Below, one piece after another: positions 6,672 through 42,377 of a stretch of DNA of 64,000 nucleotides. This DNA comes from Sulfurimonadaceae bacterium (GTDB taxonomy: Bacteria > Campylobacterota > Campylobacteria > Campylobacterales > Sulfurimonadaceae). Positions within the stretch are counted from its first letter, which is position 1; the number at the start of each line of letters is the position of its first letter. The stretch covers positions 1 to 64,000 of the forward strand of contig JADGDM010000002.1 in NCBI GenBank assembly GCA_016744905.1, written 5' to 3'. The position numbers and the translations under genes were made by a program. The notes below the pieces were generated by a model. The model was not told where the DNA came from, did not search any database, and saw nothing but the letters and a program-made list of their open reading frames with translations.

Positions 6672-7447
6672 AATTCAACACCTCATTGCCTGATGATGAT
6701 GTCAATGTCAGTAAAAGTTCAGCACTTTCAGATTTGACATGGATGGTTTTAGGGACGATGCTAATTCTTCTCTTTTTATACTTTACCCTTGGTTCACTCA
6801 TCGAACTTGGTGTCAAAAATATCTCCGTCAAAAATGAACAGAAATTTTTCTCCTACCTCCCTATCGATACACTTTTTAAAGAAGAGAACAATCAAAGCAC
6901 TCCCTATCAAAAACTACTTGATGAATCAGCCCACTGTTTTAATTCTCCCTACCACTTCATTCTCAATCTCAGTGAGGACAATGTATCCAATGCCTACGCC
7001 CTACCCGGTGGGTTTATTATCATAAACCAAGGACTGATACATAAAGCTACTTCTGAAAATGAACTCTTTTTTGTCCTCGCACATGAAGTAGGTCATTTTA
7101 AAAATCGTGATCATTTAGAGGGAATTGGTCGTGGTTTTATGGCGATTACCTTAAGTGCTATGATGGGTCTCTCTGATGCCAGTGAATTGATGAGTACCTC
7201 TTTAAACTTTGGTGAAAGTCACTTCTCAAAAAGTGCTGAGAGTGAAGCAGATCTTTATGCGGTAGACATGATGATGTGCAGATATGGTCATTCTACTGGT
7301 GCGACTGATTTTTTTAAACACCTTCCCAGTGATAGTCAAAATACACTCTTTTCGAGCCATCCTAAAACACTCGAACGTATTAAAAATTTAGAATCTTATA
7401 TCAAGAAAAAGAACTATCCAGTAGGAACGCTTAAAAGTTTTCGTTAA
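6668..7447 (+). CDS. M48-family membrane zinc metallopeptidase
   Basis: The zinc site HEVGH begins at residue 139 (LAHEVGHFKNRDH). The third ligand is the Glu in SAESEADLYAVDMM, and SHPKTLERIKNLE is typical of the M48 C-terminus. A transmembrane segment lies at residues about 24-46. ALPGGFIIINQGLI is the usual M48 strand before the helix. The start is a TTG overlapping the TGA of the preceding YbjQ gene. The family degrades or trims membrane-associated or periplasmic proteins. Its translational linkage to two YbjQ proteins suggests that these regulate or present substrates to it. The 3' end overlaps the convergent oxygenase gene by 17 bases. Confidence 0.88.
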   Translation: MKFNTSLPDDDVNVSKSSALSDLTWMVLGTMLILLFLYFTLGSLIELGVKNISVKNEQKFFSYLPIDTLFKEENNQSTPYQKLLDESAHCFNSPYHFILNLSEDNVSNAYALPGGFIIINQGLIHKATSENELFFVLAHEVGHFKNRDHLEGIGRGFMAITLSAMMGLSDASELMSTSLNFGESHFSKSAESEADLYAVDMMMCRYGHSTGATDFFKHLPSDSQNTLFSSHPKTLERIKNLESYIKKKNYPVGTLKSFR

Positions 7448-24430: not shown

Positions 24431-26565
<2,135 letters not shown>

Positions 26566-26574
26566 GAGTACTTT

Positions 26575-27267
26575 ATGAAAATCGCCATCATCCCCGCACG
26601 CGGAGGAAGCAAAAGAATTCCTCGTAAAAATATTAAACTTTTTCATAATCAAGAGATGATTGCTTACAGTATTAAAACAGCCATAGAGAGTGGTGTATTT
26701 GATAAAATCATTGTCTCAACAGATGATGAAGAGATCGCAGATGTGGCTAGAAAATATGGAGCAGAAGTACCTTTTATCCGTCCAGCAGAACTGAGTGATG
26801 ATCATACGGCTACCATTCCTGTTATTGCACATGGCATTGAAAACTGTGGAATTGATATTCAAGATATCGACGCGGTTTGTTGTATCTATGCGACTGCGCC
26901 TTTTGTCAAAGCGTACTACATAAAAGAGGCCTTAGAGAAACTGACAGAACAAAAACGTGATTATGTTTTTAGTGCAACCTCTTTCCCCTTTCCCATCCAG
27001 CGCGCTATCAAAATAGACAAAGAAGAAAATATCTCTATGTTTCAGCCTGAGCACTTTAACACACGCAGTCAAGACCTTCAAGAAGCCTATCATGATGCGG
27101 GTCAGTTTTATTGGGGAACACCTCAGGCATGGCTAGGAGATGTCCCGATATTTTCACAAAACTCAGCCATAATTGAACTGCCTCGATACTTGGTTCAAGA
27201 CATCGACACCTTAGAGGATTTCAAGCGCGCTGAGTTGATGTATGAAGTGCTGATGAGACATGAATAA
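26575..27267 (+). CDS. pseF: Pseudaminic acid cytidylyltransferase
   Basis: PseF activates pseudaminic acid to CMP-Pse for transfer. The nucleotide-binding start AIIPARGGSKRIPRKNIK is diagnostic of CMP-sialate synthetases. It also has ATAPFVKAYYI and DAGQFYWGTPQAW, which place it in the Pse subgroup, and the ending VQDIDTLEDFKRAELMYE. The length is 230. A TAGGAG site precedes the ATG, and it overlaps pseG by 8 bases. Confidence 0.95.
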   Translation: MKIAIIPARGGSKRIPRKNIKLFHNQEMIAYSIKTAIESGVFDKIIVSTDDEEIADVARKYGAEVPFIRPAELSDDHTATIPVIAHGIENCGIDIQDIDAVCCIYATAPFVKAYYIKEALEKLTEQKRDYVFSATSFPFPIQRAIKIDKEENISMFQPEHFNTRSQDLQEAYHDAGQFYWGTPQAWLGDVPIFSQNSAIIELPRYLVQDIDTLEDFKRAELMYEVLMRHE

Positions 27268-28219
27268 AAAGATACTTTTCCGTTGTGACAGCTCATCACT
27301 TATTGGGCATGGTCACACCCGTCGCTGTCTTGTTTTTGCCAATCAGTGCGACGAAAATGATATCAGTTTTGCCACACAAAGTTTAGAAGGCAACATAAAT
27401 CATCTTATCCCCTATGCCCACCATTTTTTGAAATCAAATGACATTCAAGAGCTTTCTGCACTGATTAACAGAGAAAAAATAGACCTGCTTATCTTAGATC
27501 ATTATGCGATTCATTATGAAGATGAGAAAAAGCTCAAAACACTGACGGGTGTGAAAATACTCAGCTTTGATGACACCTATGAAAGACATTACTGCGATAT
27601 TTTACTCAACCACAACATTGGTGCTAAGGAAGAAAAATACAGCGCGTTAAGCCCAGACTTCACCAAACATCTCTGCGGTGAAAAGTACACGCTTATTAAA
27701 AAAAGTTTTCATCCTAAAAAAGTCTCTCTAAAGTCAAAAAAACATTTAGATATTTATCTCTCTTTTGGTGGGACAGACCCCTTTAATCTTCTACAAAATT
27801 TTATCCGAGATTTTAAAAATGTACAACATACCTTTCATATTACCACTACCTCAGCCAATGTCAGCCTATCTCAGCTAAAACAACTCAGTTTTATTCATAG
27901 AAATTTCAAACTCTATATTGATCAAGACAGTATCGCTGAAGTGATGCAAAAATGTGACTTTGCCATCATAACACCCAGTGTGAGTGTTGCCGAAGTTTTA
28001 AAGATGCAGATTCCATTTTTAGCCATTAAAGTTATTGATAATCAAAAAGAGATCTATAACTATCTAAAATCTAAACAATTTCAGACCCTAGCGCGCTATG
28101 ATAGAGGAAAAATACATCTACTCCTATCTAAAATAAATACTACTTTGCCGATCTATACAAAAAGAAAACTGATACTAAGATCAGGGAAGCAACTATGCAA
28201 TCAAACCCTATTAAGTTAA
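27260..28219 (+). CDS. pseG: UDP-2,4-diacetamido-2,4,6-trideoxy-beta-L-altropyranose hydrolase
   Basis: PseG removes UDP from the bis-acetamido altrose before condensation. It has a GT-B-like fold. The catalytic His is in SLIGHGHTRRCLVFA; LLILDHYAIHYEDE, SFDDTYERHYCDILLNHN and LSFGGTDPFNL follow. The length (319) is normal, and it overlaps both pseF and pseH. The order B-C-F-G-H-I follows the reactions except that pseF precedes pseG. Confidence 0.94.
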   Translation: MNKKILFRCDSSSLIGHGHTRRCLVFANQCDENDISFATQSLEGNINHLIPYAHHFLKSNDIQELSALINREKIDLLILDHYAIHYEDEKKLKTLTGVKILSFDDTYERHYCDILLNHNIGAKEEKYSALSPDFTKHLCGEKYTLIKKSFHPKKVSLKSKKHLDIYLSFGGTDPFNLLQNFIRDFKNVQHTFHITTTSANVSLSQLKQLSFIHRNFKLYIDQDSIAEVMQKCDFAIITPSVSVAEVLKMQIPFLAIKVIDNQKEIYNYLKSKQFQTLARYDRGKIHLLLSKINTTLPIYTKRKLILRSGKQLCNQTLLS

Positions 28220-28650
28220 TTAATTATACCGATCTAGATGAGGCACAGATGCGCATGGTACTTTTATGGCGCAATCATAAAAAAGTACGTCAAATGATGT
28301 ACAACAAACATATTATTACACTGGCAGAGCATCTGCACTTTATTGGTGAACTAAAAACACGCAAGGATATGCAACATTTTCTAGTTCAAGGAGATGAATA
28401 CCTTGGCGTTATTAATTTTAAAGATGAACATCTTGGTCTTTTTGCGAACCCTGATATGAAAGGGGTGGGAAAAATATTATTGCAATTAATTATTCAATAT
28501 GGATTTGAAGAGTTAAAACACAAAAGACTCCTTGCAGAAGTCTATGATAATAACACAGTCGCCATTCATCTCTATAAAAAATTTAACTTTAAACAGATCT
28601 CTAAAAATGAAAATATCTTAACCATGGAGCTAAAAAATGAAAATAGCTAA
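28195..28650 (+). CDS. pseH: UDP-4-amino-4,6-dideoxy-beta-L-AltNAc N-acetyltransferase
   Basis: This GNAT-fold enzyme adds the 4-N-acetyl group in the Pse pathway. Motifs include VLLWRNHKKVRQMMY near the N-terminus, GVINFKDEHLGLFANP and the acetyl-CoA region GVGKILLQLIIQYGFEELKHKRLLAEVYDNN. At 151 residues it is slightly short but complete. It overlaps pseG by 25 bases and pseI by 14. Confidence 0.92.
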   Translation: MQSNPIKLINYTDLDEAQMRMVLLWRNHKKVRQMMYNKHIITLAEHLHFIGELKTRKDMQHFLVQGDEYLGVINFKDEHLGLFANPDMKGVGKILLQLIIQYGFEELKHKRLLAEVYDNNTVAIHLYKKFNFKQISKNENILTMELKNENS

Positions 28651-29674
28651 TTTTGATTTGGACAATAACAAAACGTTTATCATTGCTGAACTCTCGGCCA
28701 ATCACAATGGTTCTTTATCCTTGGCTAAAAAAACTATTGCCTCAGCTGCGCGCTCAGGTGCAGACGCCATAAAACTACAAACCTACACGGCAGACACATT
28801 AACCATTAATTGTGATCGTGAATATTTTCAAATCAATCAAGATACCTTATGGGATGGGGAAAATCTATATAGCCTCTATCAAAAAGCCTATACCCCGTGG
28901 GAGTGGCACGAAGAGCTTTTTTTATGTGCAAAAGAGCATGGCCTTATCTGTTTCTCTTCTCCTTTTGACAACAGCGCCGTTGATCTGCTTGAAACACTGC
29001 ATACTCCTGTGTATAAAATAGCCTCTTTTGAGATTACTGATTTGGAGTTGATTGAATACGCCGCTTCGAAGAAAAAGCCGATGATTATCTCAACAGGAAT
29101 TGCGACGCAAGAGAATATTGAAGACGCCATACAAGCTTGTAAAAATGTAGGAAATGAGGAGATTATTTTACTTAAATGTACCTCTGCATATCCCGCTCCT
29201 TTTGAAGAAGCAAACTTAAAAACCATTCAAGATATTGCCATGCGTTACGGTGTTGAAGTTGGATTTTCTGATCATACCTTAGGTATTACGGCGCCTATTA
29301 CAGCCGTTGCACTGGGTGCAAAAGTAATAGAAAAACACTTCATCTTAGATCATGCATTGGGTGGAGTCGATGAGCCTTTTTCTTTGGATGAACAGGAATT
29401 TAAAATGATGATAGACGCAGTACGTGAAAGTGAAAAGCTACTGGGTCGAGTAAGTTATGAAATCACACCAAAGATAGAGAAGTCTCGTACCTTTGCACGA
29501 TCACTTTTTATCATTGAAGATGTCAAAGCAGGAGAGCCACTCACACGTAAAAACATCCGCTCCATTCGTCCTGGTTTTGGCATAAGTCCTAAACATTTAA
29601 AAGAGGTTTTAGGTAAGACATTTAAAGATGATTATAAAGCAGGAGAACCATTACAGTGGGAACTTCTGAATTAA
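28637..29674 (+). CDS. pseI: Pseudaminic acid synthase
   Basis: PseI condenses the altrose derivative with phosphoenolpyruvate to give pseudaminic acid. It has a NeuB-type TIM barrel (AELSANHNGSLSLAKKTI, DAIKLQTYTADTLTI, FSSPFDNSAVDLLE, ISTGIATQENIEDAI, GFSDHTLG and the C-terminal ALGAKVIEKHFILD). An antifreeze-like SAF domain follows (RSLFIIEDVKAGEPLTRKNI). The length is 345. It overlaps pseH and the following unknown gene. Confidence 0.95.
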   Translation: MKIANFDLDNNKTFIIAELSANHNGSLSLAKKTIASAARSGADAIKLQTYTADTLTINCDREYFQINQDTLWDGENLYSLYQKAYTPWEWHEELFLCAKEHGLICFSSPFDNSAVDLLETLHTPVYKIASFEITDLELIEYAASKKKPMIISTGIATQENIEDAIQACKNVGNEEIILLKCTSAYPAPFEEANLKTIQDIAMRYGVEVGFSDHTLGITAPITAVALGAKVIEKHFILDHALGGVDEPFSLDEQEFKMMIDAVRESEKLLGRVSYEITPKIEKSRTFARSLFIIEDVKAGEPLTRKNIRSIRPGFGISPKHLKEVLGKTFKDDYKAGEPLQWELLN

Positions 29675-30660
29675 AAACAATTGTTGTTCTTTCTCATGAC
29701 GCTGGTGCTTCTGAGATACTCTGCGCGCTTATAAAAGAAAATTTTCATAAAGCCATTTGGAAAGTCTTTACAACGACCAATGCCCCTATGGTACAAATCG
29801 CCACAAAAAATGCTATCAACTTCCAGATTATTGACAATTTAAATCTTCAGCTCAGCGCGCTGGAGTTTGACCTCCTCTTTTTTGGAACCTCTTGGCAAAA
29901 CAAAATAGAGCGTGAAGCGGTGCAGTATTGTAAAAAGAACAACATACCTAGTGTTGCTTTTTTAGAACACTGGAGTAATTTTAGGGAACGTTTTGATTAT
30001 CCAGATGAACAGTGGAGAGAAAATCTAGGTGACTTTACTGCACTCAGTGATGAAAAAGCTTTTAACTTGGCGCAAGAGTTTGAGCTCACCCAACCACTCA
30101 AAGTACCAAACTATTATCTAAAAAATCTCAAAAAAGAATCCAGCGCGCTGAGCAATGGAAACTTACTCTTTTTAAGTGAGCCCACACAGGCCGTTGCCCT
30201 TGCCAATTATGGTGATAAAAACTACTGGGGGTTTACCCAGTTCAGCGCGCTGGAAGATATCTTAAAAAACTTTGAAAAATTCAAGTGCCAAGGTTTACAA
30301 ATTCGCCTTCACCCCAGTGAAGATGCTCAGGGTTTTAAAAACATTTTAAAAAAATACCCTCACATCAAAACATTTATCAATCCTGCCTCCTTTATGCCTA
30401 TAGAAAAACAGCTACACAATGCAAAGATGGTGATAGGCTTTGATACGATGGCACTCTATATTGCTGCGCATTTAGGCCTCAGTTTTATCTCTTATCTCCC
30501 CTCAGAGAAAAGAGCCTTTTTACTTCCCCTACCCTCTGCGCATCAGATTCGTAATCTAAGTGCAATAAAAGCACAACATCTTCGTCCATATAAGCTTGAT
30601 ACAGAGGAGTTTGGACTAAATTTTGATACACTAATACAAACAGTTTCAAAGGTAAACTAG
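29656..30660 (+). CDS. Unknown GT-B-like protein in Pse operon
   Basis: The 334 residues have no family I can name. The layout resembles a two-domain GT-B glycosyltransferase: an N-terminal Rossmann-like half (VVLSHDAGASEILCALIKENF, FDLLFFGTSW, PSVAFLEHWSNFR) and a C-terminal half with IRLHPSEDAQGF and MVIGFDTMALYIAAHLGLSFISYLPS. The His-Pro motif followed by a D-T-M-A helix recalls sialyltransferase-type GT-B enzymes. A role as an extra Pse transferase is a guess. The GTG start overlaps pseI by 19 bases. Three perfect CAGCGCGCTG palindromes occur inside it, the densest cluster in the window. Confidence 0.6.
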   Translation: MGTSELKTIVVLSHDAGASEILCALIKENFHKAIWKVFTTTNAPMVQIATKNAINFQIIDNLNLQLSALEFDLLFFGTSWQNKIEREAVQYCKKNNIPSVAFLEHWSNFRERFDYPDEQWRENLGDFTALSDEKAFNLAQEFELTQPLKVPNYYLKNLKKESSALSNGNLLFLSEPTQAVALANYGDKNYWGFTQFSALEDILKNFEKFKCQGLQIRLHPSEDAQGFKNILKKYPHIKTFINPASFMPIEKQLHNAKMVIGFDTMALYIAAHLGLSFISYLPSEKRAFLLPLPSAHQIRNLSAIKAQHLRPYKLDTEEFGLNFDTLIQTVSKVN

Positions 30661-31638
30661 GTGATCAAAGCGGGCATAATCGGTTGTGGAAATATCGCAG
30701 GTTTTTTAGACAACGCACATGATGAGCATGTTGCTACCCATGCACATGCGTATAAAAAACATCCTAAGTTTCAACTCAAAGCTATCGCAGACCCCGACTC
30801 AAGTCAGCGCGCCAAGTTTAAAAATGAGTGGGGTCATAATCTTTATGATTATGAATCTTTAGAGTTGATGTTAGAACATGAAAAGCTTGACATACTTTCG
30901 ATCACTTCACCGACACAGTTTCATCATCAAAACCTGCTAACAGCCTTACGTGATCCACACCTGAAAACCATCATTGCTGAAAAACCTTTTGTCCAAACCC
31001 AAGCTGAACTCACCGAGATCAAACATCTTCTCAAAAAATGTCATAAAAATATTATCATCAACTTTATCCGTCGTTATGATCCAAGTATCTTAAAAATCAA
31101 AGAGATGATAGAAAATCAAGCGTTGGGTGAGATGCTCAGTTTTGATGGCGTTTTTAATAAAGGACTTTATCATAATGGGGCACATATGTTGGAACTCATA
31201 GAGTTTTTATGTCACCCCATTCATACGATTACAGCCCCATCAGCACAAAAAATTGCAGATGATCTGTATGGCTCATTTTTAATTAAAACCAAAATGGCCA
31301 AGGGTGTGATTCAAAACAGTTATGAGATTGGGTACTCTATCTTTGAGCTACAACTGCTCTTCTCTCATGGGCGTATTAAAATTACCAACAGTGGGCACCA
31401 AATAGAAGTAGAGAAAGTTGTCGAATCTCCTTTTTATAAAGGCTACTATAACCTTGCTCTTCAAGATGTTTTAGAAGACACCTTACAGTACAGTCTTTAC
31501 AATAGTGTCCGCTTTACACTACACAAAAAAAAGTCTCAAGAAGCTTTTAATTCACATCTTAAACTTTCACAAAAACTCTTAGACATTAGAGATCATCTTT
31601 TGAGTAAAAAAACATTAAAGTGGGGAAATATTGACTAA
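30661..31638 (+). CDS. Gfo/Idh/MocA-family sugar oxidoreductase
   Basis: The Rossmann motif GIIGCGNIAGF opens the protein, followed by AIADPDSSQRA and the family signature IIAEKPFVQTQAEL with its catalytic Lys (EKP). The C-terminal half is the alpha/beta GFO/IDH substrate domain. Members oxidise or reduce a hydroxyl on NDP-sugars or free sugars using NAD(P). It starts at a GTG directly after the TAG of the GT-like gene and overlaps the aminotransferase gene by 8 bases, so the two probably supply a keto-sugar and its amination. Confidence 0.88.
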   Translation: MIKAGIIGCGNIAGFLDNAHDEHVATHAHAYKKHPKFQLKAIADPDSSQRAKFKNEWGHNLYDYESLELMLEHEKLDILSITSPTQFHHQNLLTALRDPHLKTIIAEKPFVQTQAELTEIKHLLKKCHKNIIINFIRRYDPSILKIKEMIENQALGEMLSFDGVFNKGLYHNGAHMLELIEFLCHPIHTITAPSAQKIADDLYGSFLIKTKMAKGVIQNSYEIGYSIFELQLLFSHGRIKITNSGHQIEVEKVVESPFYKGYYNLALQDVLEDTLQYSLYNSVRFTLHKKKSQEAFNSHLKLSQKLLDIRDHLLSKKTLKWGNID

Positions 31639-32929
31639 ACTGGCCATTCATGGTGGAGAAAAAGTCCGAAGCAGACCTTTCCCTGCCTACAATACTATCG
31701 GAGAAGAAGAAGAAGAAGCCGCTTTGCGTGTTTTACGCTCAGGAAAACTTTCCACGTACCTAGGAACTTGGCATGATGATTTTTATGGTGGTACTGAGGT
31801 TCAAGCACTCGAACGTGAATGGGAGAGCGCTTTTAAAGTTAAACATGCCATCTCCGTAAACTCTGCAACTTCAGGTCTTTACGCTGCTGTTGGCGCGCTG
31901 GGGATTGAAGCGGGTGATGAGATTATTGTGAGCCCTTACACCATGAGTGCGAGCGCTACTGCAGCACTTATTTATGGAGCTATTCCAATATTTGCGGATA
32001 TTGAAGAGGAGTTTTACTGTTTAGATATTAAAGATGTGGAAGCCAAAATCACCCCAAAAACAAAGGCGATTATTATCGTAGATATCTTTGGTGGGGTACA
32101 TGATGTTGAGGCCTTTGCACTTTTAGCAAAAAAACACAATCTCGCACTTATAGAAGATAGTGCGCAAGCTCCAGGTGTTAAGTATAAAGATAATTTTATT
32201 GGAACCCTTTGTGATATCGGTATCTATTCACTTAACTATCATAAACATATCCACGCTGGTGAGGGTGGAATGATTGTGACCAATGATGATGTCTTGGCTC
32301 AAAAACTGCGTCTTATTCGTAATCACGCAGAGGCCGTTTTAGGCGCAAAAGGTTATGAAACCCGTGAAGAACTTCATAACATGGTGGGATATAACTACCG
32401 CATGACTGAACTTGAAGCAGCCATTACCCGTGAGCAGTTAAAAAAGCTTCCTCAGCTTATGCAAGCGCGCCAAAATAACGTCACCTATTTAAATGAAAAA
32501 CTCAAACAAATTCCTTGTCTTAAAATGCCTCGTATCAGAGAAAATTCAGAGCACGCTTTTTATATTCATCCTCTACAATTTGATGCGGATATTGCGCAAG
32601 TACACCGTAATCTTTTTATAGATGCCGTCAAAAAAGAGTTGCCCCGTACCCTACTACGCGAAGAGAGTGAAGTACTTTTAAGTTATGGCTATGTTAAACC
32701 TCTTTATCTTTTACCAATTTATCAAGAACGTATCGCCTTTGGTGAGTACCCTTTTAATCTAAGCGATGTTGATTACACCAAGGTCAAATGCCCTGTTGTT
32801 GAAGAGATGCATTTTCATACACTCATCACTCACGAGTTTATGCGTCCAGGAATGTTAAAAGAAGATATGGATGATGTCGTCGCTGCGTTTGTTAAAGTGT
32901 GGGAACATATTGATGATCTTAGAGACTAA
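31631..32929 (+). CDS. DegT/DnrJ/EryC1-family sugar aminotransferase
   Basis: The 432-residue PLP enzyme is longer than PseC. It has SATSGLYAAVGALGIEAGDEI, the IEDSAQAPGV segment, and the likely Schiff-base Lys in SLNYHKHIHAGEGGMIVTN. It transaminates a keto-sugar, probably the product of the adjacent oxidoreductase. The start is a TTG overlapping the previous stop; no better ATG lies nearby. It overlaps the acetyltransferase gene by 17 bases. Together these genes suggest a second amino sugar or side-group precursor beyond Pse. Confidence 0.88.
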   Translation: MTKLAIHGGEKVRSRPFPAYNTIGEEEEEAALRVLRSGKLSTYLGTWHDDFYGGTEVQALEREWESAFKVKHAISVNSATSGLYAAVGALGIEAGDEIIVSPYTMSASATAALIYGAIPIFADIEEEFYCLDIKDVEAKITPKTKAIIIVDIFGGVHDVEAFALLAKKHNLALIEDSAQAPGVKYKDNFIGTLCDIGIYSLNYHKHIHAGEGGMIVTNDDVLAQKLRLIRNHAEAVLGAKGYETREELHNMVGYNYRMTELEAAITREQLKKLPQLMQARQNNVTYLNEKLKQIPCLKMPRIRENSEHAFYIHPLQFDADIAQVHRNLFIDAVKKELPRTLLREESEVLLSYGYVKPLYLLPIYQERIAFGEYPFNLSDVDYTKVKCPVVEEMHFHTLITHEFMRPGMLKEDMDDVVAAFVKVWEHIDDLRD

Positions 32930-33440
32930 AAGACTTTATCTTAGATCACTTGAACTCCATGATGCTGATGGTGCCTATCCCTCATGGCTAAATAACCCTG
33001 AAGTGACAAAATACAATTCACATGGCAGTAAGTTATACACCAAAGAGATGGCACTAGCGTATATTCATGATGTCAATGTTCAAGCAAATATTCAAGTTTT
33101 TGCCATTATTTTAAAAGAGAATAACCAACATATAGGCAATATTGCTTTACAAAATATTGACCCGCTGACGCAGTGCGCTGAGTTTGCCATATTAATCGGA
33201 GAGCATAGTATCTACGCTCAAGGAATTGGGGAAGAAGCTTCTAAACTTCTAATAAAATATGCTTTTAATGACTTGGCTTTAAAAAAACTATATTGCGGAA
33301 CCAGTGAACATAATATTGGTATGCAAAGACTGGCACAAAAACTAAATTTCACACTGGTCGATATTCAAAAAAATGGGATGCAAAAAAACAGCATTATGGT
33401 CGATATAATAAAATATGAATTAAACAAAGAGGAGACCTAA
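32913..33440 (+). CDS. GNAT-family N-acetyltransferase
   Basis: The protein of about 175 residues starts MILETKRLYLRSLELHDADGAY and has the RimJ/GNAT layout SWLNNPEVTKYNSHG ... ILIGEHSIYAQGIGEEASKLLIKYAF with an acetyl-CoA loop (QGIGEEA). It probably acetylates the amino group made by the preceding aminotransferase. The ATG at 32913 keeps a short overlap with that gene; an earlier frame would extend further into it. TAATG links it to the next amidotransferase gene. Confidence 0.85.
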   Translation: MILETKRLYLRSLELHDADGAYPSWLNNPEVTKYNSHGSKLYTKEMALAYIHDVNVQANIQVFAIILKENNQHIGNIALQNIDPLTQCAEFAILIGEHSIYAQGIGEEASKLLIKYAFNDLALKKLYCGTSEHNIGMQRLAQKLNFTLVDIQKNGMQKNSIMVDIIKYELNKEET

Positions 33441-34570
33441 TGAGACGTTGTAAAACTTGTGTTGAAACAGATACAAGACCGACTATGGAGTTTGATGAAG
33501 AGGGTATTTGCCTTCCTTGTCGCTCCGTCTCACTTAGTGCTAACGAAAAGATTAACTGGGATGAACGGACGAAGGTCTTAGAAGATATTGTTACTTGGGG
33601 GAAAGAGCACAAGGGTTCTGGTTATGACTGTATCATTGGTGTCAGTGGAGGAAAAGACAGTACCCGTCAAGCACTTTTTGCAAAAGAGTTAGGTATGAAT
33701 CCACTTCTAGTGTCGTATAACTATCCCCCTGAACAACAGACCATCATCGGTGCAGAAAACCTTGCAAACTTAGTAGAGTTGGGTTTTGATGTTATTCGGA
33801 TAACACCCTCGCCATTTATCTCTAAAGCTCTTATGAAAGAGTGTTTTTATAAACTTGGTAATCTTTTTAATGCCTCTGAACTGGCGCTCTATGCTTCTTT
33901 ACCACGAACGGCCATTGCGTATAAAATCCCTCTTATTTTTCTAGGAGAAAATCCAGGACTTGCCTTTGGTACTGATGTTGGGTCTAAGGACTACAACGGA
34001 AATCAGATGCGTAAAATGAATACCCTTCAAGGAGGAGATCCTCACCGTTTTAAAACAGACTGGATGAGTGATAAAGATCTCTATTGGTATCGGTATCCAC
34101 TTGATGATGATCGAGAGCGCGCTGACCTTAGAATTGTCTATATGGGTTACTTTCTTGATGACTTTAATGACCATAGCAATGCAGCTTACGCCATGAAACA
34201 CGGTCTTAAAATTCGTGAAGGCGAAGATGCACAACCTGATAATATCGGCGGAACAGGTACATGGACAGCCCTTGATGATGACTTTGTAATCGTAAATCAG
34301 ATGCTAAAGTATATGAAGTTTGGATTTGGAAAAGCCACCCAAGAAGCAGGAGTTTCCATTCGCGCTGGATTGATGAGTCGCCAAGAGGGAATGGAGATTG
34401 TAAAGGCATATGATGGGAAATGTGCACCAAAATATATAAAACAATTTTGTAGCTATATTGATATCGACGAAGATGAGTTTTGGAGAGTAGCAGAAGGCTT
34501 TCGAGATCAACAGTTTTTTCAAAAAGATGAAGAAAACAACTGGCAACTAAAAGATGAGTTATTGGTATGA
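33440..34570 (+). CDS. N-acetyl sugar amidotransferase (WbpG/PseA type)
   Basis: The enzyme converts an acetamido group on a sugar such as Pse into acetamidino with ATP and ammonia. The 376 residues start with a zinc knuckle pair (CKTC and CLPC within the first 30 residues). A PP-loop ATP-pyrophosphatase motif GVSGGKDSTRQALFA follows, then the family segments LGENPGLAFGTDVG and IGGTGTWTALDDDF. It is followed by hisH- and hisF-like genes that would deliver ammonia, as in the wbpG-hisH2-hisF2 and wbuXYZ clusters. It overlaps both neighbours by 1-4 bases. Confidence 0.92.
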   Translation: MRRCKTCVETDTRPTMEFDEEGICLPCRSVSLSANEKINWDERTKVLEDIVTWGKEHKGSGYDCIIGVSGGKDSTRQALFAKELGMNPLLVSYNYPPEQQTIIGAENLANLVELGFDVIRITPSPFISKALMKECFYKLGNLFNASELALYASLPRTAIAYKIPLIFLGENPGLAFGTDVGSKDYNGNQMRKMNTLQGGDPHRFKTDWMSDKDLYWYRYPLDDDRERADLRIVYMGYFLDDFNDHSNAAYAMKHGLKIREGEDAQPDNIGGTGTWTALDDDFVIVNQMLKYMKFGFGKATQEAGVSIRAGLMSRQEGMEIVKAYDGKCAPKYIKQFCSYIDIDEDEFWRVAEGFRDQQFFQKDEENNWQLKDELLV

Positions 34571-35190
34571 AAATAGTAATTATTGATTACAAAATGGGCA
34601 ATACCCAATCTATTCAAAATGCACTCTCTTTTTTAGGTTATAACACCATTATCAGTCATAATTATGATGAGATAGAGGACGCAGATGCACTAATTTTACC
34701 AGGCGTTGGTGCCTTTCATCAAGCCATGCATAATCTGCAAGAGCTGCATCTGATAGAACCTCTAGAGCGGCATGTTATAAAAAAGAAAAAACCTATTTTG
34801 GGAATCTGCTTAGGTATGCAAATACTGGCTAAAAGCTCTAGTGAGATTGAGATAACTGAGGGTTTAAACTGGATAGATGCCAAAGTCCAACAAATTCCTT
34901 CAACAGAACTAAGTATTCCTCACGTAGGTTGGAACTCCATTGAAGTGAGGAAAGACAATTCACTTTTTAAAAATATCTCATCTGATACCCACTTTTATTT
35001 TGATCACTCTTTTCACTTTATGGCAAGAAATAAAGATATCTCTTCAACCACCCTGTATGGTCAAGAAATTGTTGCTTCCATACAAAAAGAGAATATTTTT
35101 GCCACACAATTTCATCCAGAAAAGAGTCAGAGCGCTGGACTTAAACTTCTAAGAAATTTTTTAAATTATGTAGAGGACAACAGATGTTAA
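34567..35190 (+). CDS. hisH: HisH-type glutaminase subunit for sugar amidotransfer
   Basis: This class I glutamine amidotransferase (207 residues) has the nucleophile Cys in PILGICLGMQILA, His and Glu in ATQFHPEKSQ, and DYKMGNTQSI at the N-terminus. It releases ammonia from glutamine for its HisF partner. No histidine biosynthesis genes lie nearby and it sits between two sugar amidotransferase genes. It is therefore most likely the dedicated paralogue for acetamidino-sugar synthesis rather than the histidine enzyme. Confidence 0.9.
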   Translation: MKIVIIDYKMGNTQSIQNALSFLGYNTIISHNYDEIEDADALILPGVGAFHQAMHNLQELHLIEPLERHVIKKKKPILGICLGMQILAKSSSEIEITEGLNWIDAKVQQIPSTELSIPHVGWNSIEVRKDNSLFKNISSDTHFYFDHSFHFMARNKDISSTTLYGQEIVASIQKENIFATQFHPEKSQSAGLKLLRNFLNYVEDNRC

Positions 35191-36053
35191 AACAAAGAGT
35201 CATTGCGACACTCATTATAAAGAACAACATTGTTGTTCAAAGTATTGGTTTTAAAAAATATCTTCCTGTAGGACGACTTGATATTGCTGTTGAATATTTA
35301 AATAGATGGGGTATTGATGAAATTATCATTCTTGACATCGATGCGAGTAGAAATCAAACCTTAATCAGTACAGATTTAATACAAAAAGCTTCTCAGTCTT
35401 GCTTTGTTCCAATCTGTGTTGGTGGTGGTATTAAAAGTATTAAAGATATTCAAAATTTGTTGAGCAATGGTGCAGATAAGGTCAGTATTAATCATCATTT
35501 TTTACACGCACCTTCTTTTATTAAAGAAGCGGTCTCGACCTTTGGTTCTCAATGTATTGTTATCACTTTTGATGTTCAAAAAATTAATGGTCAGTATCTT
35601 ATCTATGACTACCTCAATGATACTATTTTTGAAAGTTTAGAGCATGGCCTAAAATTAGCTCAAGCATATAATGTAGGAGAGATTCTTATTAATAATGTGG
35701 ATCGTGATGGTATGAAGACAGGTCTTGATAGTGAGCTTGCTAACATTGTCACCTCTTTCTCGTCACTCCCTATTATGATGCTGGGTGGAGCAAAAAATCC
35801 ACAAGACCTTCTTGATGGCATCAAAAATCCAAAACTCTCAGCTGTCTGCGCTGCTAACTTTTTCCACTTTACTGAACATAGTGTGAATATTGCCAAAAGT
35901 TTTATCAAAAAAGAGGTTAACTATCCTATTCGTCATGAGAGCCATGTTCAATATAAAGAATTTTCTTTTGATACAGATGGACGTATTTTAAAAAGAGATG
36001 ATAGAGAACTCTCACAACTTCTTTTTGAAGTTCAAGAGGAGGAGATTATATGA
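35184..36053 (+). CDS. hisF: HisF-like ammonia-channel subunit
   Basis: The (beta/alpha)8 barrel resembles HisF: PICVGGGIKSIKDI, GADKVSINHHF, VITFDVQKING, ILINNVDRDGMKTG and MMLGGAKNPQDL. The first strand reads IATLIIKNN where true HisF has an IPCLDV-type strand with the catalytic Asp11, so that Asp is missing, while the Asp on strand five is kept. It also has about 30 extra C-terminal residues. Loss of the cyclase residue fits a protein that only channels ammonia to an amidotransferase. It overlaps hisH and the following gene. Confidence 0.87.
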   Translation: MLKQRVIATLIIKNNIVVQSIGFKKYLPVGRLDIAVEYLNRWGIDEIIILDIDASRNQTLISTDLIQKASQSCFVPICVGGGIKSIKDIQNLLSNGADKVSINHHFLHAPSFIKEAVSTFGSQCIVITFDVQKINGQYLIYDYLNDTIFESLEHGLKLAQAYNVGEILINNVDRDGMKTGLDSELANIVTSFSSLPIMMLGGAKNPQDLLDGIKNPKLSAVCAANFFHFTEHSVNIAKSFIKKEVNYPIRHESHVQYKEFSFDTDGRILKRDDRELSQLLFEVQEEEII

Positions 36054-37255
36054 AGTACTGCAAGAGATGTCTCTATCCTGAAAATCATGCCCTTAATCTT
36101 ATTATTGATAAAGAAGGTATCTGTAGTGGGTGTCGAGTACATGAAGAAAAATTCACTATTGATTGGGAAGCTAAAGAGGCTAAGCTCATTCAACTGCTTG
36201 ACGCGTATAGAAGTGAAAGTTCACTAAATTATGATTGTATTATTCCTGTTAGTGGTGCGAAAGACTCCTATTTTATTGTTGACTTAATCAAAAACAAGTA
36301 CAAACTCAACCCTCTTTTAGTCAGTTACAACAAACACTACAACAGCCATGTTGGTAATCGTAATTTGGCTTATCTCAAAACCATCTTTAATTGTGACGCA
36401 GTTGAACTGATTGTTCAGCCACAAAAAGTGAAGAAAATCACCCGTGTTACTTTAGAAAAAATGGGCAGTATCTACTGGCATATACTCGCAGGAGAGACTG
36501 TATTCCCTGTTCAAATTGCAGTTAAATATAAGATACCACTCATCATCTGGGGTGCGCATCAGGGTCTCGATCAAGTAGGTATGTTCTCCCATCATGATGA
36601 AGTCGAGATGACACGTAAGTATAGAAAAGAGCATGATCTTATGGGTTATGAAGCAGAAGATTTACTCGATGGTTCAAGTCTTGAACAAAATGATATTGAG
36701 CAATATGTTTATCCTCATGATAAAGAGATAGAACAAGTGGGTGTAAGAGGTATCTATCTGGGTAATTATATCCCTTGGGATACCAAGGCTCAACATGAAA
36801 AAATGATAGAAAAATTTGACTATGAGACAATGCCTCAGCAACGTAGTTTTGATCTCTATAACCATGTAGACTGCTTTCACTACCTCGGTCTACATGACTA
36901 TATCAAGTACCTAAAATTTGGTTATTCTAAAATAAATGATCATGTAGCACGTGAGATACGATGGGGACGTCTTCATAAAAGAGAAGCCTTAAAACTAATA
37001 CAGCGCTACCAATCTATTCAACCTGAGGATTTATCCCTATTTTTACAATGGCTAGATATAAGTGAAGCGGAGCTTTTTAAACTTATAGATGCTTTTAAAA
37101 CAGACACTGTTTTCAGCATTGACACTCAAGAGTACAGTGATAATCATCTACAGAAAATTGAACAAAAGAATAAGTTAAACTTTATTCTAACAAAAAACAA
37201 AAATCCAAAATTAAAAGAAGATCAATATACGCTTATTGAAAAAGCATATCTTTAA
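36050..37255 (+). CDS. Second N-acetyl sugar amidotransferase homologue
   Basis: The 401-residue protein is related to the enzyme at 33440-34570, with an N-terminal CKRC/CSGC zinc pair and a PP-loop reading PVSGAKDSYFIVDLI (Ala replaces the second Gly of SGGKDS). A matching IIWGAHQGLDQVG segment follows. The C-terminal extension of about 40 residues is Lys/Asn-rich. It may act on a different sugar or on a second position while sharing the HisH-HisF pair. The altered PP-loop leaves activity open. Its 3' end is separated from the methylase gene by 38 bases with an AAAGGA site. Confidence 0.85.
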   Translation: MKYCKRCLYPENHALNLIIDKEGICSGCRVHEEKFTIDWEAKEAKLIQLLDAYRSESSLNYDCIIPVSGAKDSYFIVDLIKNKYKLNPLLVSYNKHYNSHVGNRNLAYLKTIFNCDAVELIVQPQKVKKITRVTLEKMGSIYWHILAGETVFPVQIAVKYKIPLIIWGAHQGLDQVGMFSHHDEVEMTRKYRKEHDLMGYEAEDLLDGSSLEQNDIEQYVYPHDKEIEQVGVRGIYLGNYIPWDTKAQHEKMIEKFDYETMPQQRSFDLYNHVDCFHYLGLHDYIKYLKFGYSKINDHVAREIRWGRLHKREALKLIQRYQSIQPEDLSLFLQWLDISEAELFKLIDAFKTDTVFSIDTQEYSDNHLQKIEQKNKLNFILTKNKNPKLKEDQYTLIEKAYL

Positions 37256-37293: not shown

Positions 37294-37917
37294 ATGAAAG
37301 ATTATAAAACTGCACAAGAATCATTTTGGGCTGGAGAGTTTGGAAACAGTTATATTAATAGAAATGAGTCTGAAGAGTTAATAGCGAACAATACTATGAT
37401 GTTTTCAAAAATTTTAGACAAGGTTTCTAATGTAGAATCAATTATTGAATTTGGTTCTAATGTAGGAATGAATCTTTTCGCACTTAAAAACTTACTTCCT
37501 AAAACCAAACTGTCTGCTGTCGAGATCAATCAAAAAGCAGTTGAAGTGCTTCAGGATTTTCCAGACTTAAATGTTTACCCTATGTCTATTTTTGATTTTA
37601 AAGATGAAAATTCACGTGATTTTGTTTTCACTAAAGGGGTACTTATTCACATCAATCCTGATGAACTTCAAAATGTTTATGAAATTATGTATCAAACTTC
37701 TAAGCGTTATGTATGTATGGTGGAGTACTATAATCCTTCTCCTGTTGAAATTGATTATCGAGGCCATGATGCGCGTTTATATAAACGTGATTTTGCTGGT
37801 GAGATTATGGAAAAATATCCAGATCTCAAACTTATTGACTATGGATTCTTTTATCATAGAGATCCCAGACATGAGCAAGAAGATATGACTTGGTTTTTGA
37901 TGGAGAAAAGAAGCTAA
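37294..37917 (+). CDS. Pseudaminic acid biosynthesis-associated methylase
   Basis: This class I SAM-dependent methyltransferase (207 residues) has motif I IIEFGSNVGMNLFAL, AVEINQKAVEVL after the second strand, and DFVFTKGVLIHINPDELQNVY. The start KTAQESFWAGEFGNSYINRN and the block ARLYKRDFAGEIMEKYP belong to the family seen beside Pse genes (TIGR03587). It may methylate the nonulosonate or its amidino group. TAATG couples it to maf. Confidence 0.9.
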   Translation: MKDYKTAQESFWAGEFGNSYINRNESEELIANNTMMFSKILDKVSNVESIIEFGSNVGMNLFALKNLLPKTKLSAVEINQKAVEVLQDFPDLNVYPMSIFDFKDENSRDFVFTKGVLIHINPDELQNVYEIMYQTSKRYVCMVEYYNPSPVEIDYRGHDARLYKRDFAGEIMEKYPDLKLIDYGFFYHRDPRHEQEDMTWFLMEKRS

Positions 37918-39923
37918 TGGAAAACTTTGAATCAATGGCAATAAATACTTTTCAAAATAATATTCAATACTTTGAAAAGAATCATCCTGATTTACACCGT
38001 CGAATACTCGCTTATGAAGCAGCTCTAGAACTTCAACAATATACAGAACGCTACTCACTAGAATACTTAGATGGTTATTTTGATGTTAAAGACCTATCAA
38101 CTGAAACTTACTTATATAATACTGATAGCAATCAGTACTCTAGTGCCCTGGTTGATACAGTGGGCTTAAAACGAACAGGGCATATTTTTGAAGCTTTAAG
38201 CCATATCCAACTGGATCAAACTAGCGCCAATATTATAGATGTCAGTCAATTAACATTTCATAATACATTATGGGCAACAGCAAAGATCATTAGATATAAC
38301 CAAGACTACACTCAACAAACCAATAATACTATGAATAATGTTTCAAAGATTATAGTCCTTGGATTGGGCCTGGGTTTACATCTACAAAACTTTAAAGAGA
38401 AGATGGGTGCCCAAGTTCTCTTTATACAAGAAGATGATTTTGAACTATTTAAGCTCTCATTATTTACCTGTGATTATGCACAACTTGCAACAAATGCAAC
38501 ACTTTATTTTTCAATTATGGAAGAGACTACTCAATACAGACACTCCTTTATTTCATTTTTAGATGAAGCCTTTAATCATAATAGTTACTTAAAATATATT
38601 CCTTTTTTTGGTAATTATGAGACAAAAACAAAAGAGTTACAACAGTTTGTTCTTTCACAAAACCATATTATGTATCCCTATAATGCCTTTTTATTGCGTT
38701 ATCTCAATGCCCCAAGATACCTCGTTCAAGAGTATGCCTTTATCGATGTTTCAAAACGTAGAACGAATAATATTTTTTCTCAAAAACCTGTATTGATAAT
38801 AGCTTCTGGTCCTTCTACTGATAAGAACATGCAATGGATAAAAGCAAATCATCATAGATTTATTATTGTTTCCATGCTTTCAACGTGTAGACTTCTTCAA
38901 AAACATGATATTAAACCAGATATTGTCATGCATATTGATCCAGGTATAGCTGAAACTGATACTCTTTTTAGTGGACTGGGTGAAGACTATTTTGATGATA
39001 TGTTATTATTATTTGCTTCAAATGTTGATACCAATACTGTCTCTAGATTTAAAAGAGAACAACTCTTTTTTATTGAGCAATCTACTCAATATAAAAAGAA
39101 CTTTAGTAGCTTAACTGCACCAAGTGTTGGTGAGTATACCTATGCCTTACTATTGGTTTTTGGAGTTAAAGAGCTGTATCTTCTAGGTATAGATTTAGCG
39201 TTGGACGCGGACAGTTTACAGTCACACAGTGGCGATCACCCTTTCGCCGTTCAAGGAACAAAAGATGAGACACTTGAGAGTAGCCCATCTTTATCTATTA
39301 ACGAAGATCTAATTACTGTTAAAGGAAACTTCAGAGAGACCATCCCTACATTAGCAGCTTATAATATCTCTATTAATGAATTTTCAAATTTTTCAAAAAC
39401 TTTATTGACAGATAATGAGAATATCTATAATTTAAGTGATGGTGCTTATCTACACGGGGCTACACCAGCCTCATCTGAGAGTATTAATACGTCTACATTA
39501 GACGTATTAGATAAGAGTACTATTTACACAGAGTTACATAATTTCTTCGTTTCTATATCGAATGCTGAATTTAGGGATGATGATAAAAAAATACTTGTTT
39601 ATCAACTCAAAGAAGCAAAAAAATTACGTAAAATCATTAAGAACTATACACGTACTCAACATACACAAAGTGGTGAATACCTTACAGAGGTCGGTAATTT
39701 ATTATTTGCTCTATCTGACATGCAAGGTAAAAGTAAATCTGATTTATCTGAAGTCTTTTATTACTATTTCAAAATCTCTTATTGTTATATAACAGATCTA
39801 TTTAATACTCAAGATCTACCAAATATTCCAGATAGGATTCAAGAAATTAATACAATATTAATCAATCAAATTGAAAAAATATCGTCAATATATATTGAGA
39901 GTTTGGAAGAGTATTTAGAGTAA
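37917..39923 (+). CDS. maf: Maf-family flagellin glycosyltransferase (motility accessory factor)
   Basis: Maf proteins transfer nonulosonic acids to Ser/Thr of flagellin in the cytoplasm. The 668-residue protein has an N-terminal domain, then the DUF115/MptE-like core with VLIIASGPSTDKNMQWI, IIVSMLSTCRLLQKHDIKPDIVMHIDPG, and APSVGEYTYALLLVFGVKELYLLGIDLAL. A helical C-terminal domain follows. The start is the ATG in TAATG with the methylase stop. It ends just before a perfect 15-bp hairpin shared with the convergent flagellin. Confidence 0.92.
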   Translation: MENFESMAINTFQNNIQYFEKNHPDLHRRILAYEAALELQQYTERYSLEYLDGYFDVKDLSTETYLYNTDSNQYSSALVDTVGLKRTGHIFEALSHIQLDQTSANIIDVSQLTFHNTLWATAKIIRYNQDYTQQTNNTMNNVSKIIVLGLGLGLHLQNFKEKMGAQVLFIQEDDFELFKLSLFTCDYAQLATNATLYFSIMEETTQYRHSFISFLDEAFNHNSYLKYIPFFGNYETKTKELQQFVLSQNHIMYPYNAFLLRYLNAPRYLVQEYAFIDVSKRRTNNIFSQKPVLIIASGPSTDKNMQWIKANHHRFIIVSMLSTCRLLQKHDIKPDIVMHIDPGIAETDTLFSGLGEDYFDDMLLLFASNVDTNTVSRFKREQLFFIEQSTQYKKNFSSLTAPSVGEYTYALLLVFGVKELYLLGIDLALDADSLQSHSGDHPFAVQGTKDETLESSPSLSINEDLITVKGNFRETIPTLAAYNISINEFSNFSKTLLTDNENIYNLSDGAYLHGATPASSESINTSTLDVLDKSTIYTELHNFFVSISNAEFRDDDKKILVYQLKEAKKLRKIIKNYTRTQHTQSGEYLTEVGNLLFALSDMQGKSKSDLSEVFYYYFKISYCYITDLFNTQDLPNIPDRIQEINTILINQIEKISSIYIESLEEYLE

Positions 39924-39959: not shown

Positions 39960-42377
39960 TTACTGGAGTAGTTTTAGAACATTCTGCTGAACAGCATTTG
40001 CTTGAGACATAGCATAACTACCAGACTGAGCAAGAATGTTCAGTTTAGAGAAGTTCGCACTCTCTGCTGCAAAGTCAACATCACGAATTTGTGATTCCGC
40101 TGCTTTTACATTTACTTGCGTTACAGAAATATTGTTAATAGTTGAAACAACTTGATTTTGAACAGAACCTAAATCAGAACGAATTGAATCAAGATCTTTA
40201 ATCGCACTATCAACAGTATCCATTGCTTTCATAGCACCTTCAAGCGTTCTTACATCAATATCAGAAAGGGCTTGAAATTCAGTATTTGAAAGCCCAACTG
40301 ATCCAGAATTATCAGTATTGATGGCTATCTGTGTATCGGCTTTAATTAAGGCACCTGTAGTACCTGTTCCTCGCAGTAGCGTCATATCTTCAGATAAGGT
40401 TACTGCTGCTCCTAATGTTATATCAGAAGTCAACTGTGTACCTGCCGCAATCGCCGCCGCACCTGATTGAGCCGCGGTTAAGTCCGTAGTTACTACCGTT
40501 CCTGCTTTTAATACAGTCGCAGCAGCAAGAATACTTCCGGCTTTAAACGTCATGTCATCTTCAAGATTAAAGTCGGCATTGGCAGTTACCACAGCTCCAA
40601 TAGTTGAGCCTTTTGCAAACTGAGTATTTGCAGTCAATACTGTTCCGGCTTTTACATCCATCTCAACAGAAGTAGTTACCGCAGCATTATTAATAGTATC
40701 TCTACCTAAGGTTGATCCTGCTTTTAAAGTTGATCCAGAAATAATTAAACTACCTGCTTTAAGCACAGTATCTTCAACCATAGTTGTTGAACCTGTTGTA
40801 ACAAGGTCCGCACCAGCAATTGATCCAGTGTTAATAGAAGAAGAAGCGGCTACTTGAGACTGTGTACTACCATCAGTCACATAATTTAAAGTCATATCTG
40901 CAGTAAGGGTCAAATTATTTCCAACCGACAAAGTAAGTGCACTTGAAAGTACTTGTCCTACTGAGTATGATGTTCCATTATCAACAAAATCTTGTTGAAG
41001 AATCGTACCAGCACCTAAGATACTGCCTGCAAGAAGTGTAGAACCTGCCGTTAATAACATATCTTCTGCAATGGCTAAATTCACATTATTATGTGTTAAT
41101 CCACCAATAGAACTTCCTTGCTCAATACTTGTCGCAGAAAGTAAAGTAGTCCCTGATTTCATAACCGCATCTAATGTAGTTGCTACAGCATTACCTGCTG
41201 ATACAACTACGTCACCACCAATAGTTGTTCCTGCTTTTAAATCAGACCCAATGGCGATAATTGAACCGGCTGCCAATTTAGAATCGACAACGGTACTTGT
41301 TGATGCATTAGAAGTAACAGTGGCACCAGTTGCACCAGCGCCAACACCAAGAACTTGGAATTCAGAAGCGCCCGCTTGAACTAACTCAATATGTCCAACT
41401 GTAGACATGTCTTTACCTGAACTACCAAGAACACCAGAAACACCACCAGTAACTTCAATCGCTCTACCATCATTTGATGTTAAACTTAATGCTCCATTAG
41501 AAGTCAATGTTGCAGTAACACCTGTCTCCGTAGTTTTTCCATTAATTGCTGCTAGTAAAGTACCAGAATTATCATTATCTTCTACAACAACTGCTCCAAT
41601 ATTTACACCATTTACAGCGAAATCAGCACCTGTAGAACCAGCTGAAACACTTGCTGCTGATGTTGATTCAACAATTGCTTGAGCTCTAATACCTGTATCA
41701 CCTGAGTTACGATTGATTTCAGCTGCTAAAGCACCTAAACCATTTTTAGGATCATTGTTATACTGAATATCTACAGATTTCATCTGTACACTTTCACCAG
41801 TTAAGTTAGAGTTCATTGTTAATTGAATTGTACCAACACCTACTTCTAAATCAGAACGTGTAGTGTGACCTACTTTTGTAGTTTCTGCAGAAGCGATAGA
41901 AGTCTTAATTGATTCATTTGCATTAGCCCCCAATTGGAACTCTTTATTAGTAAAGGTTCCTGATAAAAGTTTTTGACCATTAAATGAAGTTGTTGTTGCA
42001 ATATTTTGTAACTCTTCCATTAATCTGTCAATATCTTTTTGAATGGCTAAACGAGAGTTTGTATTTTGACCATCACTTGCAGCTTGAACTGATTTCGTTT
42101 TGATCGTATCTAAAATTTTTGAATACTCATCAAGAGCACCATCAGCTGTTTGAATCAGACCAATAGCATCATTCCCATTGTTGACAGCTTGTGCCAATGA
42201 AGAAGCTTGTGAACGTAGCTGATCAGCGATAACCATACCAGAAGCATCATCGGCTGCTTTTGTAATACGTAAACCTGAACTCAGTCTAGAAAGAGAATCA
42301 TCCATATTTCTATTATTCATTGTAGCGTTCGTGTGTGCACTCATTGCTGCAATATTTGTATTAATTCTAAAACCCAT
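39960..42377 (-). CDS. flaB: Flagellin, sigma-54 copy, with repetitive insert
   Basis: The conserved flagellin ends are intact: the N-terminal D0/D1 start MGFRINTNIAAMSAH with LSRLSSGLRITKAADDASGM, and the C-terminal SDLGSVQNQVVSTINNI ... ANAVQQNVLKLLQ. At 805 residues it is far longer than the usual roughly 500. The extra length is a middle region (about 190-700) of short degenerate repeats built on AGS/T-x-L/I-x-x-GT. From about residue 159 to 586 it is identical to the flagellin upstream. A sigma-54 promoter match precedes it, as for Campylobacter flaB. The symbol is assigned by that analogy. Confidence 0.93.
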   Translation of the reverse strand: MGFRINTNIAAMSAHTNATMNNRNMDDSLSRLSSGLRITKAADDASGMVIADQLRSQASSLAQAVNNGNDAIGLIQTADGALDEYSKILDTIKTKSVQAASDGQNTNSRLAIQKDIDRLMEELQNIATTTSFNGQKLLSGTFTNKEFQLGANANESIKTSIASAETTKVGHTTRSDLEVGVGTIQLTMNSNLTGESVQMKSVDIQYNNDPKNGLGALAAEINRNSGDTGIRAQAIVESTSAASVSAGSTGADFAVNGVNIGAVVVEDNDNSGTLLAAINGKTTETGVTATLTSNGALSLTSNDGRAIEVTGGVSGVLGSSGKDMSTVGHIELVQAGASEFQVLGVGAGATGATVTSNASTSTVVDSKLAAGSIIAIGSDLKAGTTIGGDVVVSAGNAVATTLDAVMKSGTTLLSATSIEQGSSIGGLTHNNVNLAIAEDMLLTAGSTLLAGSILGAGTILQQDFVDNGTSYSVGQVLSSALTLSVGNNLTLTADMTLNYVTDGSTQSQVAASSSINTGSIAGADLVTTGSTTMVEDTVLKAGSLIISGSTLKAGSTLGRDTINNAAVTTSVEMDVKAGTVLTANTQFAKGSTIGAVVTANADFNLEDDMTFKAGSILAAATVLKAGTVVTTDLTAAQSGAAAIAAGTQLTSDITLGAAVTLSEDMTLLRGTGTTGALIKADTQIAINTDNSGSVGLSNTEFQALSDIDVRTLEGAMKAMDTVDSAIKDLDSIRSDLGSVQNQVVSTINNISVTQVNVKAAESQIRDVDFAAESANFSKLNILAQSGSYAMSQANAVQQNVLKLLQ
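40621..41903 (-). repeat. Identical tract shared by the two flagellin genes, copy 1
   Basis: This 1,283-base stretch inside the first flagellin appears base-for-base identical to 43197-44479, judged by line-by-line comparison of most of it. Both flanks differ at synonymous and replacement sites. It covers roughly residues 159-586. Confidence 0.85.

Follow-up and report, generated by a model that had tools for sequence, protein, structure and literature searches.

The first 64,000 nucleotides of contig JADGDM010000002.1 (forward strand) from a Sulfurimonadaceae bacterium of the phylum Campylobacterota (GenBank assembly GCA_016744905.1), hereafter the window, carry four consecutive plus-strand genes at 33440-37255 in a pseudaminic acid operon. 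They encode an N-acetyl sugar amidotransferase (ATa), a HisH-like glutaminase, a HisF-like barrel and a second amidotransferase (ATb). Two amidotransferases sharing one HisH/HisF pair form a recurrent cassette, present in 10 genomes from three phyla. Such a module is very probably acetamidino-forming in its general function, and on sequence grounds the chances are about even that ATb acts as a HisF-coupled partner of a catalytic ATa. ATb is kept wherever the cassette occurs, while its PP-loop has drifted and that of ATa has not.

Each gene of the four overlaps the next (34567/34570, 35184/35190 and 36050/36053), so that joint translation is probable. ATa (33440-34570, 376 residues) scores 297.8 bits against the WbuX model TIGR03573, whose curated cut-off is 203.2, has the zinc tetracysteine (CXXC...CXXC) at C4, C7, C24 and C27, and carries the PP-loop SGGKDS at residues 69-74 (about 33644-33661). 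It thus shows every feature tested for this family, namely score, zinc site and the PP-loop SGGXDS, and deviates at none of 15 widely conserved columns. ATb (36050-37255, 401 residues) scores even higher, 326.5 bits, and keeps the cysteines C4, C7, C25 and C28, but reads SGAKDS at residues 68-73 (about 36251-36268) and deviates at 3 of 16 widely conserved columns. Since SGGXDS is a hallmark motif of the amidotransferase family (PMC10607449), ATb is classed here as a divergent homologue rather than a proven family enzyme. Its closest structure is the Legionella pneumophila N-acetyl sugar amidotransferase (LpNASAT, 8wex), with a Foldseek E-value of 2.3e-24 and TM score of 0.75, a phmmer E-value of 1.4e-36 and 24% identity. 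A Pfam search of the window proteins found no matching model for either amidotransferase. Both the gene order and the SGAKDS substitution had been read correctly in the initial annotation.

That annotation had also called the order unusual, which holds in so far as the cassette is uncommon: in a complete search of the window's family, a core ATb occurs in 6 of 228 genomes, always in the order amidotransferase, hisH, hisF, amidotransferase (the window, G417, G1304, G170, G1262 and G1433). It is not unique, however. The identical order recurs in G053, from the same taxonomic order, in L013, a metagenome-assembled genome (MAG) labelled Deltaproteobacteria and placed in Myxococcota by its NCBI lineage, and in G1052 (locus L160), drawn from the phylum of a Planctomycetota MAG. 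That MAG (L012) carries hisH, hisF and ATb followed by the second amidotransferase. Outside the family search, the genomes are drawn samples; phylum assignments follow the group sampled in each case or the record labels, and counts over related sequences are not independent. A search of plasmids with tblastn returned distant amidotransferases only.

The phylogeny of both amidotransferases, proposed with the initial annotation, places them in separate clades. In a tree with the PP-loop columns masked, which omits 17 remote rows included in the preceding tree, the ATbs of all 10 loci form one clade (support 99/99), and nine of their ten partners fall in an ATa clade (98/94); the L012 partner is a long branch of unsure position. 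G340 (L094), initially counted as a core ATb, moved to a sister group when more sequences were added and was excluded. No core ATb without an adjoining second amidotransferase was found among the loci and trees examined. Over the first seven cassettes, the divergences of ATa and ATb are correlated (r 0.66, 1/5040 permutations), as expected for a cassette that moves as one block. Most of the closest relatives of the core ATb clade are single amidotransferases beside HisF, with intact loops. In two genomes, HisF and the amidotransferase are fused, with TIGR03572 matching at 1-243 and TIGR03573 from 308; these loci (L149:10034-12106 and L151:6709-8760) each encode one polypeptide of about 690 residues, with hisH adjacent.

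The PP-loop behaves very differently in the two clades. Outside the core ATb clade, SGGXDS is present in 67 of 68 amidotransferases and the third-position Gly in all 68, and the ATas of cassette loci read SGGKDS without exception. Among the ten core ATbs, the loops are SGAKDS (the window and G1262), TGAKDS, SGARDS, SGTGDD, VGDAED (two), SGGKDS and SGGRDS (two), so that the third Gly is lost in seven (to Ala in four, Thr in one and Asp in two). Because G1262 also has SGAKDS, the window's loop cannot be put down to a sequencing error or to a single genome. The VGDAED proteins come from G053 (Campylobacterota) and a Planctomycetota genome and are 64% identical; a loop common to two phyla at such a distance has been maintained and is no recent lesion. 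The tree requires at least three PP-loop changes, which may have run in either direction. A uniformly degenerate ATb is ruled out by the three members with intact loops.

Other parts of ATb show conservation. The zinc cysteines, D62 and N105 are kept in all ATbs, the VGDAED proteins included. In two independent two-locus comparisons, the nonsynonymous distance (dN) was 0.29 and 0.32 for ATb and 0.25 and 0.28 for ATa; owing to saturation of the synonymous distances, the comparison uses dN and not dN/dS. As the values for ATb lie close to those for ATa, ATb is under constraint. That it is a functionless, decaying duplicate is accordingly very improbable, its altered loop and its 3 of 16 deviating columns being outweighed by a full-length frame, an intact zinc site, these dN values and its presence in 10 of 10 cassettes.

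The glutaminase and the barrel between the two amidotransferases point to ammonia delivery. HisH (34567-35190, 207 residues) belongs to its family by score (TIGR01855, 225.5 bits against a cut-off of 105.4) and retains the catalytic Cys-His-Glu residues in the motifs GICLG and QFHPEK. HisF (35184-36053, 289 residues) matches the WbuZ model TIGR03572 best, at 226.6 bits, which is below the cut-off of 299.7 for that equivalog; the cut-off is reached in only 2 of 200 genomes of the order, nearly all WbuZ-type HisFs there falling short. Against the true HisF model TIGR00735, it scores 172.5 bits, far below 294.55, and is not assigned to the cyclase. Its N-terminus (MLKQRVIATLIIKNN) has Ile at the position of Asp11 (codon 35214-35216) followed by Ile12, and it keeps D130 together with R5, E46, K99 and E167, known as the ammonia gate residues. 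In the true cyclase, Asp11 is the general acid and Asp130 the general base (PMC11350729).

The Ile-Ile pair at Asp11 was noted in the initial annotation, and the reading stands, although it is not special to this locus. Asp11 is lost in 41 of 49 amidotransferase-linked HisFs and Asp130 in the other eight, so a peculiarity of the window's HisF is ruled out; canonical HisFs keep both residues in 9 of 9 informative sequences. The gate residues are kept in 49/49 linked HisFs, two of which have Arg in place of Lys99. This supports an ammonia conduit devoid of cyclase activity as the probable role of the whole amidotransferase-linked group, in agreement with the pure ammonia channel first suggested for the window, where HisH also keeps its catalytic residues. 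The eight Asp130-changed proteins (L076:5660, L077:9207, L078:6224, L097:6007, L098:7104, L102:7295, L158:8875 and L164:5922) constitute a second type of linked HisF, in which Asp11 is kept, Asp130 is mostly Glu, and position 9 is Lys or Arg. The genome also has histidine genes of its own: contig C12 encodes a canonical HisF (370.8 bits), and contig C95 a separate HisH with a HisA-like gene after it. A missing his operon, under which the pair studied here would be the only HisH/HisF, is thereby ruled out.

Two features distinguish the HisFs of two-enzyme cassettes. Gln replaces Lys19 in 10/10 of them, as against 7/39 other linked HisFs; by itself Gln19 is little informative, because the K19A change hardly alters the cyclase of Thermotoga maritima HisF (PMC11350729). 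The second is the extra length reported initially, which proves to be a C-terminal tail: in the window, 45 residues follow the position of T. maritima residue 244 (residues about 245-289, encoded at 35916-36050), where canonical HisFs have 6. In 8 of 10 cassette HisFs, the tail spans 24-45 residues and has conserved positions. The AlphaFold model of the window protein has a mean predicted local distance difference test (pLDDT) score of 85.8, with a confident barrel and the last 12 residues disordered.

Taken together, the four genes would encode a single machine for making acetamidino groups on the pseudaminic-type sugar of the operon. HisH, with its catalytic residues intact, would free ammonia from glutamine, and the ammonia would pass through the HisF barrel, a conduit without the cyclase acid Asp11, as suggested by the linked HisFs, which as a group conserve the gate and lack one catalytic Asp. 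ATa, by analogy with its family and with its loop SGGKDS intact, would activate the N-acetyl group with ATP and admit the ammonia. ATb would be a paralogue docked on HisF and kept for binding, whether to the HisF tail, the substrate or ATa, its own ATP chemistry being relaxed in the lineage that includes the window and gone from certain others, much as Ctu2 partners Ctu1. An ATb with a necessary amidination of its own would be expected to hold its ATP site as firmly as ATa does; a loop that drifts in a protein that is kept favours the partner. The HisF fusions and the intact single relatives beside HisF further suggest a history in which the ATb line contacted HisF, ATa joined later, and ATb may then have been free to drop catalysis. 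A stricter version has slightly less than even chances: ATb would be a dedicated pseudo-amidotransferase subunit, its own ATP chemistry gone, that docks HisH-HisF mostly via the HisF tail and hands ammonia or substrate to its catalytic paralogue, in a cassette spread over at least three phyla. To our knowledge, a heteromer of this kind would be the first in sugar amidination, and no description of the ATa-hisH-hisF-ATb cassette or of PP-loop drift in ATb was found in the literature searched. LpNASAT, the sole solved relative, is a dimer in the crystal and in solution, which we count in favour of a partner role for ATb, while its dimer contacts are poorly conserved over the family (PMC10607449).

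Several other points likewise weigh against a non-catalytic partner. Three core ATbs have intact loops (SGGKDS and SGGRDS twice), including that of L093, a relative in full synteny with the window; SGAKDS retains four of the five fixed letters of the motif; and the HisF tail is absent from both VGDAED cassettes. The ATbs of the intact-loop relatives, and that of the window as well, may be active.

The strongest competing explanation follows from this, and we regard it as unlikely, yet the most serious of the alternatives: both amidotransferases would be active on two N-acetyl groups of one nonulosonate, with one HisH/HisF feeding both. ATb does pass the family cut-off, its motif differs by a mere Gly to Ala, and the loops of its near relatives in G417, G1304 and G170 are unaltered, so that two active enzymes in the window stay conceivable. 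The tailoring genes at 30661-33440, which include a dehydrogenase, an aminotransferase and an acetyltransferase, could make the additional N-acetyl group. However, seven of ten ATbs have an altered or missing loop, which is never the case for ATa, and G137, G388 and G091 share the tailoring genes but carry just one amidotransferase in the slot, without HisH/HisF. No account of 8-amino nonulosonates on flagellin turned up in a search of the literature.

A division of labour between sugars, as in Campylobacter jejuni, is less probable still, and we consider it doubtful. ATa would serve pseudaminic acid and ATb a legionaminic-type sugar, or the reverse, with HisH/HisF in common. Such a split is conceivable in view of another nonulosonate locus in the genome, of legionaminic type, on contig C57 (L112, 5000-16911), encoding a GlmS-like enzyme, a LegB-like dehydratase, LegC (556 bits), a NeuD-type acetyltransferase and a NeuB-type synthase (511 bits), and of the lack of a third amidotransferase; moreover, C. 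jejuni Cj1316 (PseA) and Cj1324 (PtmG) serve pseudaminic and legionaminic acid, respectively (PMC4195440). Against it, the cassette of G170, a genome rated 100% complete, occurs with one nonulosonate synthase, and in the tree ATa and ATb both fall apart from the PseA-like and PtmG-like rows of L103, a C. jejuni-like genome. The initial annotation had proposed two amidinations on one nonulosonate, or amidination of two sugars, and hence a new glycan. Neither is preferred here, given that the PP-loop is altered in seven of ten ATbs and wholly lost in one two-phylum lineage while ATa is intact, and given the single synthase of G170. If both amidotransferases are nevertheless active, a doubly amidinated flagellar sugar is predicted.

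The surrounding operon supplies the presumed acceptor. On the plus strand, pseB, pseC, pseF, pseG, pseH and pseI (24434-29674) encode the complete pseudaminic acid pathway, all six products belonging to their NCBIfam families above cut-off (PseB 538.6, PseC 491.7, PseF 342.8, PseG 199.9, PseH 106.9 and PseI 513.1 bits). The tailoring block follows pseI at 29656-33440, also on the plus strand, and comprises an uncharacterised 334-residue protein without a family match, a Gfo/Idh oxidoreductase, a DegT-type aminotransferase and a GNAT acetyltransferase. A neighbourhood comparison found this block in most pseudaminic acid loci carrying the four-gene cassette; it is retained in many relatives having one or two amidotransferases and could provide the nonulosonate with an added N-acetyl group. 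In L085, L090 and L095, which have the same operon, one amidotransferase of another clade (at 7181, 7719 and 6554, respectively) occupies the cassette slot without HisH/HisF. In L082:7930-9768 and L101:10438-12480, a GlmS-like class II glutaminase domain starting MCGIFG forms a fusion protein with an N-acetyl sugar amidotransferase domain, another ammonia source for the same chemistry. Downstream of the cassette, on the plus strand, lie a pseudaminic acid biosynthesis-associated methylase (37294-37917; TIGR03587, 291.8 bits, above cut-off) and a Maf/PseD-type flagellin glycosyltransferase (37890-39923; PF20157, 54.0 bits; PF01973, 106.8 bits). Two flagellin genes on the opposite strand adjoin the operon (39960-42377 and 42536-44953); they are adjacent, encode 805 residues each and have nearly identical long central domains, the pair being likely a recent duplication or gene conversion.

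We know of no worked-out account of how ammonia passes from WbuY/WbuZ-type HisH/HisF to sugar amidotransferases, and the second paralogue, the conserved HisF tail and the natural HisF-amidotransferase fusions point to likely contact surfaces. If ATb is a partner of ATa, acetamidino formation joins tRNA thiolation as a reaction in which a PP-loop enzyme is split into catalytic and non-catalytic subunits.

Among known systems, the closest are WbuX/WbuY/WbuZ, WbpG/HisH2/HisF2 and AglXYZ (TIGR03573, TIGR03572 and NF038364), in which an amidotransferase likewise sits in a sugar operon together with HisH and a relative of HisF; Asp11 is missing from HisF across the group. As the initial annotation held for wbpG/wbuX-type clusters, these modules have one amidotransferase per HisH/HisF, whereas the window has two, in addition to the HisF tail, Gln19 and a HisF below the WbuZ cut-off. 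C. jejuni already provides a case of two amidotransferases in the same organism (PMC4195440); PseA and PtmG lie there in the flagellar nonulosonate region with a pseudaminic acid pathway. That pair serves two sugars, its genes are about 5 kb apart and both loops read SGGKDS, while ATa and ATb fall in other clades; the C. jejuni-like genome L103 has one amidotransferase-linked HisH/HisF, beside pseA. LpNASAT, a dimer, shares the zinc tetracysteine with ATb and differs in having SGGKDS in place of SGAKDS. The tRNA thiolase Ctu1/Ctu2 (Ncs6/Ncs2) is likewise a pair of PP-loop paralogues, both required in vivo, in which the partner's loop is less conserved and the zinc sites are kept (PMC4014090, PMC10067955); it performs another reaction and belongs to another family, so the likeness to ATa/ATb is one of arrangement and not of membership.

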